Assembly: GCF_020150815.1 (NCBI RefSeq)
Contig: NZ_CP083723.1
Coordinates: forward strand, 2,418,001 to 2,482,000
Length of the DNA: 64,000 nt
Source: Haloprofundus salilacus
GTDB lineage: Archaea > Halobacteriota > Halobacteria > Halobacteriales > Haloferacaceae
Direction: 5' to 3'
Part shown: positions 56,615-59,015 of the stretch, one piece after another
Layout of the letters: every line of letters starts with the position of its first letter
How positions within the stretch are numbered: position 1 is the stretch's first letter
Position numbers and translations under genes: made by a program
The notes under the pieces: model-generated
What the model was told of the DNA's origin: nothing
Databases searched by the model: none
Seen by the model: only the letters and a program-made list of their open reading frames with translations

Positions 56615-57004
56615 ATGACCGCAGACCACCCGCTCGTTCGACTCGAAACGCTCGCCCTCGTCGCTATCGGCGGATTTGCCGGAGCGAACCTCCGATTTCT
56701 CTTCGCCGACGCACTCCCCGGTCTCGGCGGAACGTTGGCTGCGAACGCGCTCGGCAGTTTCGCGCTCGGCGTCGTCCTCTACGAGACGATGTATGTGGGC
56801 GTCGTCGCCGCCGAAACGCGCGTTGCTGTCGCGACGGGCTTTCTCTCCTCGTTTACTACCTACAGCACGTTCGCGCTCCAGTCGATGCAAGCCGGACCGG
56901 TACTCCTCGTCGCGAACGTCGTCGCGAACTACGCGCTCGGGTTCGCAGGCGTCTTGACGGGCCGCTCGCTCGTGAACGCCGTTGCCCGGAGGTGGAGTCG
57001 ATGA
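56615..57004 (+). CDS. crcB1: CrcB fluoride channel subunit 1
   Basis: 129 residues with four hydrophobic helices. GFAGANLRFLFADALP is near the N-terminus (the G-x-x-G-A-x-x-R motif of Fluc channels), ANALGSFALGVVLYE follows, and GFLSSFTTYSTFALQSM has the conserved T/S-F-S/T-T-F segment. It forms a fluoride export channel with its neighbour. Its stop overlaps the start of crcB2. Confidence 0.88.
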   Translation: MTADHPLVRLETLALVAIGGFAGANLRFLFADALPGLGGTLAANALGSFALGVVLYETMYVGVVAAETRVAVATGFLSSFTTYSTFALQSMQAGPVLLVANVVANYALGFAGVLTGRSLVNAVARRWSR

Positions 57005-57366
57005 TGGCGCTCGAACCGGCGCATCTCGTCGGGACTGGCGGGGCTATCGGTGCGTTGCTGCGGTACGCCGTCGGACAACTCGTAGACGACGGGTCGTTTC
57101 CGCTATCGACGTTAACCGTGAACGTTCTCGGGAGCTTCGTCCTCGGCGTGGTCACCTTCGCGGGCGTCGGCGATAGCGCCCTGCTCCTCGTCGGCACGGG
57201 CGCGTGCGGGTCGTTCACGACGTTCTCGTCGTTCTCGTTCGAGACGGTCCGTCTCTGGGAGATGGACGAGAAACGACGCGCCGTGGCGAACGCGACGGTG
57301 AACCTGGTCGGGGCAGGCCTCGCTCTCGGTGTGGCGTGGCTCGTCGCCTCCGGCCGTGTGTTCTGA
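57001..57366 (+). CDS. crcB2: CrcB fluoride channel subunit 2
   Basis: 121 residues with four helices: GTGGAIGALLRYAVGQLVDDG, TLTVNVLGSFVLGVV and GTGACGSFTTFSSFSFETV are Fluc motifs. ATGATGG at 57001 gives two possible starts; the first overlaps the stop of crcB1 as ATGA. Paired, divergent CrcB subunits probably assemble as a heterodimer in the membrane. Confidence 0.9.
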   Translation: MMALEPAHLVGTGGAIGALLRYAVGQLVDDGSFPLSTLTVNVLGSFVLGVVTFAGVGDSALLLVGTGACGSFTTFSSFSFETVRLWEMDEKRRAVANATVNLVGAGLALGVAWLVASGRVF

Positions 57367-57414
57367 GCCCGTCACATCGACAGCTACAGGCGTCCGGGGG
57401 ACGAACGTCGAAGC

Positions 57415-57561
57415 ATGACCGACGGCCCGACGAACCGGTCGGTGTTCGCTCGCTTCGTCGACGGTGCGGCGGGGAGTCCGTTTCTCGCGCTGATGGTCGT
57501 GTTGTTGGTGTTCCTCTCGGTGTTCTTCCTCGCCGGCGGTCTGCTGTACGTGTTCGGGTGA
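57415..57561 (+). CDS. 48-residue single-helix membrane protein
   Basis: ATG at 57415 opens MTDGPTNRSVFARFVDGAAG, then SPFLALMVVLLVFLSVFFLA, then GGLLYVFG and a stop. This is a short soluble head and one strong transmembrane helix with haloarchaeal codon use. It follows crcB2 by 48 bp on the same strand. Function unknown. Confidence 0.6.
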   Translation: MTDGPTNRSVFARFVDGAAGSPFLALMVVLLVFLSVFFLAGGLLYVFG

Positions 57562-57588
57562 GTCGCCGAATTCTCGGCGCACACGTGT

Positions 57589-57627
57589 GCTCGGCGACGA
57601 GAAGCCTCGCTCGACAGTCGGAATCAG
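57589..57627 (-). repeat. 39-bp arm repeat, copy next to tRNA-Asp fragment
   Basis: The inverse complement of 35851-35889 with a single mismatch. In the direction of tRNA-Asp it lies directly past the 3' fragment at 57633-57653. Confidence 0.75.
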
Positions 57628-57632
57628 AAGAC

Positions 57633-57653
57633 GCCCGAGGCGGGATTTGAACC
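57633..57653 (-). repeat. Partial copy of tRNA-Asp 3' end
   Basis: A 21-bp exact copy of the last bases of tRNA-Asp (57766-57786, up to but not including the discriminator), beginning GCCCGAGGCGGGATTTGAAC. On its tRNA-5' side (57654-57693) lies a segment with GATTTGAATCATGGA and CGAGCGAA, similar to the region before the tRNA-Phe fragment. Confidence 0.7.
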
Positions 57654-57764
57654 GGAGTCGTTTCGCTCGCTTCACTCCATGATTCAAATCCGCGAACGTC
57701 GCACACTGATTTTCAGCGCTCGCTCGTCACAAGCGACTCGCTCACGAGTTGAAATTCAGAGAAA

Positions 57765-57837
57765 CGCCCGAGGCGGGATTTGAACCCGCGTCACAACCGT
57801 GACAGGGTTGTATGATGGGCCACTACACCACCCGGGC
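57765..57837 (-). tRNA. tRNA-Asp(GTC), copy 1
   Basis: Acceptor GCCCGGG/CTCGGGC, anticodon stem CAACC/GGTTG with loop CTGTCAC (anticodon GTC), T-arm CGGGTTCAAATCCCG, discriminator G. Identical to copy 2 at 58461-58533. Confidence 0.95.
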
Positions 57838-57918
57838 AACCTGTACTCCTTCGTTTTTGTGAGAGACGCTTAAACCTTTTCAGTTGGCCTCGCCTGATGT
57901 GCGACCTATATTCGCAAC

Positions 57919-58335
57919 TTACTGTGGTATCTCTTCGGAGAGTTCGTACTCGTGAGCCCAGTTGATAGAGGGATGGTTGATTTTTGCATCGAATCGGAGT
58001 TCCATCTTCTGCGTCGTTGCTTCGTGAACCGGTATCCAGTACAACGTCTCGTCTGGAGGGTATCTTACAACGAACGCGTCAATCTGATTGTGATACGTTT
58101 GTTCGTGATATTCGCCTTCTTTGGTAGTCTGTGAATGCGTGTTAAACCGAATCGTCCGATCTTTATTCTGCCACGCCGTCTTGCACTGCACACGGTATAA
58201 CTGGATCCCAGCGTCGATAATAAGATCGTACTTCTCGTTGTCTCCGAAAGGTACCGAGACGCTGTATCCGTTGGCAACGAAATGTGCGAGGACTTTTGCC
58301 TAGGTCTCGTCGCCGACATCTTTCGTGTTGCTCAC
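57919..58335 (-). pseudogene. PD-(D/E)xK endonuclease gene with in-frame TAG, between two tRNA-Asp genes
   Basis: From GTG at 58335 the frame reads VSNTKDVGDET, TAG (58300-58302), then AKVLAHFVANGYSVSVPFGD, NEKYDLIIDAGIQLYRVQCK and on to a stop at 57919. YDLIID...VQCK is the D...(E/Q)xK active site of the family of intron/tRNA-associated nucleases (PDDEXK_5). The TAG replaces a Glu in GDETE, so a GAG-to-TAG change is the simplest reading. Otherwise it is full length (139 codons). Without suppression it cannot yield the whole protein; internal GTG at 58191 gives only the last 90 residues. The composition is AT-richer than neighbours, indicating transfer. Confidence 0.78.
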
Positions 58336-58460
58336 GTCTGATAATCTGTTATGAGAACACCCGGTATAAGTGAACCTAATCTGGAAACTCTGCTTCAGGA
58401 GAGTAATATCTTCTTGAGAGAACTGACTGGTGCTCGTTGGAGTTGTTCGCGGCAAAAGTA

Positions 58461-58533
58461 CGCCCGAGGCGGGATTTGAACCCGCGTCACAACCGTGACA
58501 GGGTTGTATGATGGGCCACTACACCACCCGGGC
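58461..58533 (-). tRNA. tRNA-Asp(GTC), copy 2
   Basis: The same 73 bases as copy 1, with similar flanks past its 5' end (CAACCTG.A.TCCTTC). Duplication of the whole gene together with some flank is suggested. Confidence 0.95.
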
Positions 58534-58720
58534 AACCTGCATTCCTTCATTTCTCGGTGTCGTAAATAACGCTTGCCATCCCATCGCGCCGTGTGCCGAG
58601 ATACCGCGACCCGCGTGGCCGGAAAGCATATAATCAGCTACGTTCAGGTGGAGTGTAATGCAGGTTCCCGCTGTGGATGCGGCCACGGCCGGTTAGCGGT
58701 GCGCCGCGCGGTTGAAAAGT

Positions 58721-58728
58721 GTTATATG
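58721..58728 (+). promoter_or_regulatory. TATA box of the RNA polymerase operon
   Basis: GTTATATG preceded by GAAAAGT (BRE-like), about 60 bp before the rpoH ATG. It would give a leader of roughly 35-40 nt. Confidence 0.4.
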
Positions 58729-58787
58729 GGTGGGTCGTTAATGCCGCTGTAGTATCTCGTGAGAGCTTCTTCCCACAAGCCCCACCC

Positions 58788-59015
58788 ATGGTAGACGTAA
58801 GCCAACACAAACTTGTCCCGGAACACACGCTCGTCGACGAGGAGGCCGTCGACGAAGTGCTACAGGAGTACAACGTCAAACGGACGAACCTGCCCAAGAT
58901 CAAACGCAAAGATCCGGCGCTACCGGACGAAGCCGAACCCGGTGACGTCGTCAGAATCGTTCGCAACTCGCGAACCACCGACCAAGCAGTCGTATACCGA
59001 CTAGTGATCGAATGA
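58788..59015 (+). CDS. rpoH: DNA-directed RNA polymerase subunit H (Rpb5-like)
   Basis: 75 residues: [35 protein letters not shown] then [23 protein letters not shown]. This is the Rpb5 C-terminal fold, present in all archaeal polymerases. It opens the polymerase operon. Its stop overlaps the rpoB'' start by four bases (ATGA). Confidence 0.97.

Follow-up and report, generated by a model that had tools for sequence, protein, structure and literature searches.

Two tRNA-Asp genes enclose a small nuclease frame broken by a stop codon in the window (the whole 64,000-nt stretch of DNA analysed here), raising the questions of what ties such a gene to a tRNA and whether it brought a tRNA copy with it. 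An earlier note on the locus proposed a homing-type unit whose integration would bring in a complete copy of the tRNA that it targets, with a nuclease that is either inactive or rescued by readthrough of the TAG.

The arrangement itself was confirmed. The two tRNA-Asp(GTC) genes are identical, their 75-nt ARAGORN calls matching throughout, and between them lies a frame of 139 codons including its stop, in which one TAG is the sole internal stop codon (Table 1). The insert is richer in AT, with a GC content of ∼0.475–0.50 as against 0.64–0.72 upstream in the window. By eye, the two tRNAs have similar 5' flanks over ∼20 nt, and the leader preceding the second gene resembles that of the first. 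The opening ∼30 nt of the spacer behind the first tRNA are similar to the 3' trailer of tRNA-Asp in congeners, and the anticodon stem of this first tRNA is CAACC/GGTTG (A28-U42). The window genome is near-complete (family f1, genus g1) and has one clear copy of the nuclease only.

Table 1. Parts of the tRNA-Asp locus, in window coordinates.
Feature	Position	Strand	Basis or remark
tRNA-Asp(GTC), transcriptionally first copy	58460..58534	-	ARAGORN, Rfam RF00005 60.1 bits
Spacer, first tRNA to nuclease	58336..58459	-	
Pseudogene of a PDDEXK_5 nuclease (clade II; tRNA-Asp type)	57919..58335	-	GTG start 58335, TAA 57921-57919
In-frame TAG	58300..58302	-	Glu in 9/9 aligned relatives; precedes D36, Q49, K51
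DNA from nuclease stop to second tRNA	57839..57918	-	Likely promoter AAGGTTTAAG (by eye)
tRNA-Asp(GTC), second copy, same sequence as first	57764..57838	-	ARAGORN, Rfam RF00005 60.1 bits
Mini-repeat 3' of second tRNA	57631..57763	-	Ends in partial tRNA-Asp 3' end, 29 nt, 57631-57659

The partial third tRNA-Asp copy that ends the mini-repeat was absent from the earlier note. Mini-repeats of roughly 105–150 nt are found 3' of tRNA-Asp not just in the window but also at loci L010, L057, L151 and many others; they terminate in 22–23 nt that duplicate the tRNA 3' end exactly, in many cases with an inverted copy ahead of them (a hairpin), stand up to three in tandem, and are present with or without a nuclease in many haloarchaea. 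Because it also occurs at nuclease-free tRNA-Asp loci, the mini-repeat is probably not part of the nuclease unit. The same distribution led us to reject an integrase element that uses the partial tRNA 3' copy as its att site: the repeat falls outside the unit, and there is no integrase-sized frame between the two window tRNAs.

The nuclease is a recognizable member of a known family. Read through the TAG, the window protein matches PF11645 (PDDEXK_5) over nearly the whole model at E=1.1e-40 and 139 bits (cut-off 26), ruling out a chance frame. A profile built from an alignment of ten relatives matches 2OST (E=1.3e-8), which we take to be I-Ssp6803I, and the motif residues D36, Q49 and K51 are invariant in the ten sequences and align with 2OST; an AlphaFold model made from the same ten sequences was of poor quality (pLDDT 46). 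By these profile matches, the window nuclease belongs to the I-Ssp6803I/PDDEXK_5 family. Database records of its relatives are labelled 'group I intron-associated', yet the genes were not found to be located in group I introns, and we obtained no Rfam match to a group I intron in window positions 57000–59000 or in loci L106, L117, L275 and L281.

As the TAG replaces a conserved Glu and lies ahead of the three motif residues, the window copy should be dead, and of the two fates offered for it earlier, inactivity is the one that stands; readthrough is unsupported, given the residue found at this position in the relatives. Decay is not peculiar to the window: other stops and frameshifts occur in related copies, and broken copies are frequent. 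Most nuclease copies are nevertheless maintained by purifying selection, since dN/dS is near 0.13 in close pairs, and this value together with the frequent broken copies is consistent with a homing cycle.

Linkage to tRNA genes is nearly universal. Genes matching PF11645 are present in 192 of 391 sampled haloarchaeal genomes, and 135 of the 136 loci that we read (duplicates removed; the loci are the top of the search list, in which weaker family members are under-represented) have a tRNA gene on the same strand within 1 kb. The genome behind the lone exception, L049, is fragmented. In GTDB contigs, each of the 13 closest relatives lies on the 3' side of a tRNA-Asp gene or of a group of two or three. 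Membership of the I-Ssp6803I family and this linkage support the proposed homing-type nature of the unit and its tie to tRNA. Occurrence of the same gene away from tRNAs had been named as the result that would overturn it, and the one unlinked relative that we found is a distant one on plasmid pCBA1229 (L262 2477-2905), annotated as a group I intron-associated PD-(D/E)XK endonuclease, with no tRNA gene in the surrounding 5 kb (within about 2.5 kb).

In the protein tree the nucleases form three Asp clades (I, II and III) and further Pro, Lys, Asn and Ser clades, with one tRNA per clade; mapped on this tree, many forks of which are unresolved, the tRNA labels change 15 times as compared with 39 in shuffles. 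Clade II, to which the window copy is assigned, is found in hosts of five families or more, an indication of horizontal spread, and clades II and III never occur together in one genome of the set. The nuclease gene is free-standing except in genome G021, in which it lies inside a tRNA intron (see below). The nuclease genes at L275, L279 and L281 adjoin intron-bearing tRNA-Arg(TCT) and tRNA-Thr(CGT) genes, and in Pro-type nucleases (L048, L039, L062, L119 and others) a second, diverged copy of the domain follows straight after the first.

Relatives were also seen in viruses. In HSTV-4, a tailed virus of Halorubrum, the gene starts 2 nt 3' of a viral tRNA-Asn (L260 2387-2923), and in phages My1 and phi-pp2 relatives lie within tRNA clusters; the relatives found in phage records are distant. 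A scan of the IMG/VR virus collection for vehicles yielded none.

Does the unit then carry a full tRNA copy, turning one tRNA gene into a tRNA-nuclease-tRNA array? A second tRNA-Asp lies downstream of the nuclease in 18 of the 93 Asp-type loci, and in several of these the leader and 3' flank of the second tRNA are like those of the first, as judged by eye; clade I cassettes from two families also have a common promoter motif ahead of the second tRNA (by eye). In the remaining 75 there is no downstream tRNA-Asp. In genus g9, tRNA-Asp is single-copy in each of the eight genomes searched, and the nuclease is present in the intergenic DNA 3' of it in four and absent in four; occupied and empty alleles thus exist at one site, as for an intronless homing endonuclease, and insertion took place with no duplication of the tRNA. 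Tandem tRNA-Asp genes with spacers of 10–30 nt are, moreover, common at nuclease-free loci. We therefore reject the full-copy cassette as a general mechanism on the strength of the 75 loci and of genus g9, and the claim that the unit carries its tRNA holds at most for the two-copy subset, in which the cassette may include a tRNA.

The window's own genus bears on the same question. The four congeners found all have the order tRNA-Asp, nuclease or nuclease remnant, tRNA-Asp, and their nucleases or remnants are of clade I, unlike the clade II copy of the window. Identity between the window and these congeners is 91–94% as far as the first tRNA extends, 71–79% from the start of the second, and the interval between the tRNAs has no end-to-end match to theirs, with short matches at its ends to tRNA leaders and trailers. 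As the tRNA pair is common to the four congeners found, the idea that this unit brought its tRNA copy is weakened. Ancestry of both tRNAs had been put forward as a way of disproving it, and the pair is indeed genus-wide in these congeners and not private to the nuclease of the window. On balance we think it quite improbable that the unit integrates with a full copy of its tRNA target.

The nuclease loci also differ in the sequence of the tRNA next to them. Among 58 genomes carrying clade II, 56 have a tRNA-Asp whose anticodon stem reads CAACC/GGTTG (A28-U42); among 30 carrying clade I or III, 29 have CGACC/GGTCG (G28-C42). The exceptions are few: G353 (clade II) has the stem CGGCC in common with G066, which carries a frameshifted clade II copy and is likewise of genus g26; G296 (clade II) has G28-C42 and a divergent nuclease on by far the longest branch; and G247 (clade III) has a stop in its nuclease. 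The allele switches within about a dozen genera, and stratification by genus, a rough control for kinship from which genomes of unclear status were excluded, leaves a strong association of clade II with A28-U42 (chi2=41.5, p about 1e-10), the independent switch events being fewer than the genome counts.

This match does not by itself require that the nuclease attack the tRNA. Co-inheritance through linkage alone would yield part of it with no need for immunity, and the nuclease could be a mobile or homing gene with its target elsewhere, for example in the DNA 3' of the tRNA, the tRNA allele merely hitchhiking. The position of the nuclease in the 3' flank, outside the tRNA, agrees with such an account, as does the distance of a few hundred bases between the two genes. 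So does the occurrence of A28-U42 in 114 of the 391 genomes, 57 of which have no clade I, II or III assignment (some have a nuclease locus outside those read); since a search for nuclease remnants in 20 loci of these unassigned genomes gave one weak match, the allele also exists without the nuclease.

Other tRNAs speak against hitchhiking. The common tRNA-Pro(TGG) stem, CGGGC/GCCCG, is found in none of 29 Pro-type carriers and in 16 of 27 non-carriers (p=3e-7; the carriers come from few genera, and independent events number fewer than 29). In its place the carriers have 12 different stems, all but one type fully paired. All Lys carrier loci fetched with a free-standing nuclease have an intron-bearing tRNA-Lys, the introns lying exactly at the anticodon loop, and in genera g6, g13 and g23 an intronless tRNA-Lys is present in 13 of 15 non-carriers and in none of 8 carriers (p=9e-5), some of these carriers being assigned by Pfam matches alone. 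Such variety of stems in Pro, together with the Lys introns, favours the view that being cut was selected against.

A direct case is G021 (L106 1433-1959, in nuclease orientation), in which a nuclease ORF of 141 codons occupies a 449-nt intron in the anticodon loop of tRNA-Lys(TTT). The joined exons fold as a tRNA, the intron ends can pair by eye (GCCTT/AAGGC), and no group I intron was detected. G021 links the nuclease family directly to the anticodon loop. This gene, the exact placement of the Lys introns, the avoidance of the common stem by Pro carriers and the specificity of I-Ssp6803I for the anticodon region (PMC1995217) all tell against a target elsewhere, and we accordingly find linkage alone an unlikely explanation.

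The pattern for tRNA-Asn is narrower. In genus g2, intronless tRNA-Asn is absent from 19 of 28 genomes with any PF11645 gene and from 2 of 18 with none (p=2e-4), a comparison confined to g2, since the sequence pattern used for tRNA-Asn fits few other genera. G008 and G354 have intact-looking nucleases adjoining an intronless tRNA-Asn. The resident target thus differs from the nuclease-free allele in the Asp, Pro and Lys comparisons, with G008 and G354 (Asn) and G296 (Asp) as exceptions.

We consider it likely that these genes are intronless homing nucleases that cut tRNA genes in the anticodon arm and persist beside a tRNA allele that they cannot cut, the window copy being a decayed example. 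This reading is built on the family assignment, the linkage to tRNA genes, the presence of one tRNA per clade, the spread over host families, purifying selection, decay, and the match between clade and anticodon arm. By analogy and from the allele data, the active enzyme would cut the anticodon stem-loop of a sensitive tRNA gene, and repair of the break from a nuclease-bearing DNA copy would then deliver nuclease and donor tRNA allele together. Changes in the anticodon region of the neighbouring tRNAs probably block cutting: the donor allele would be immune by a compensatory change in the stem (Asp, Pro) or by an intron in the anticodon loop (Lys, often Asn), with the tRNA still functional. 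For clade II, the predicted substrate is a G28-C42 tRNA-Asp, and the predicted refuge is an A28-U42 allele (or CGGCC). In some lineages, identical flanking tRNA-Asp genes may serve as homology arms. Once targets are exhausted the nuclease would decay, and the TAG-broken window copy would represent this stage. Against the homing model, the tRNA sequence itself does not explain how clades I and III spare G28-C42, and there are the exceptional genomes G008, G354 and G296 along with A28-U42 genomes that have no detectable nuclease.

An anticodon-arm cutter that spares its host would be expected beside an apparently immunised tRNA whatever its purpose, and the enzymes might therefore serve in defence or competition, directed at tRNA genes (or the tRNAs themselves) in viruses or competing organisms while the host tRNA is altered against self-damage. 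Relatives do occur beside tRNA genes in haloviruses and tailed bacteriophages. Patchy presence, decay and cross-family spread are better suited to a selfish homing cycle, however, homing is the known role of the relative with a solved structure, and the G021 gene sits inside a tRNA intron; a role in defence or competition seems to us very improbable.

The Seg and Mob genes of T-even phages provide a precedent for homing of this kind, in which a free-standing gene lies beside its target, the target of the donor differs from that of the recipient, and the gene is transferred together with flanking markers. The haloarchaeal unit would work similarly. The phage systems differ in that their nucleases are of other families and their targets are phage genes with no RNA fold to preserve, whereas the haloarchaeal unit combines a PD-(D/E)XK enzyme, chromosomal tRNA hosts and resistance changes that preserve the tRNA.

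I-Ssp6803I itself is an active homing endonuclease encoded in an intron of Synechocystis tRNA-fMet, and the anticodon region is reported to be its specific target (PMC1995217, with its reference B28). The haloarchaeal enzymes resemble it (2OST) in profile, in the aligned D, Q and K of the motif and in the tie to a tRNA gene, but the gene for I-Ssp6803I resides in a self-splicing group I intron, whereas the haloarchaeal genes are free-standing beside the tRNA, and even the gene of G021 is in a tRNA intron that has no group I match. Archaeal bulge-helix-bulge introns can carry homing endonuclease genes (PMC6125680), and the G021 nuclease, in an anticodon-loop intron with pairable ends, is similar. 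It differs in that its host is a tRNA-Lys and its enzyme a PDDEXK_5 nuclease, and in other haloarchaea the gene is outside the intron. In the literature, of which our coverage was incomplete, we found no account of the tRNA-nuclease arrangement or of its link to tRNA alleles, and both are provisionally regarded as new.

Since cells cannot do without their tRNA genes, which are strongly conserved, survival of a nuclease directed against them depends on an uncuttable version of the tRNA next to it. Specific compensatory base pairs and tRNA introns are here tied to specific nuclease clades, which opens an old question, the origin of anticodon-loop introns and of variable anticodon stems in archaea, to direct test. 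The nucleases are also a set of small enzymes for which the adjacent tRNA indicates the expected target. The wider proposition, which we hold to be evenly balanced, is that selfish nucleases drive evolution of the anticodon arm, with compensatory stem changes and anticodon-loop introns as the means by which lineages accommodate or evade them, that some archaeal tRNA introns are immunity devices, and that rival Asp clades reconvert the tRNA allele.
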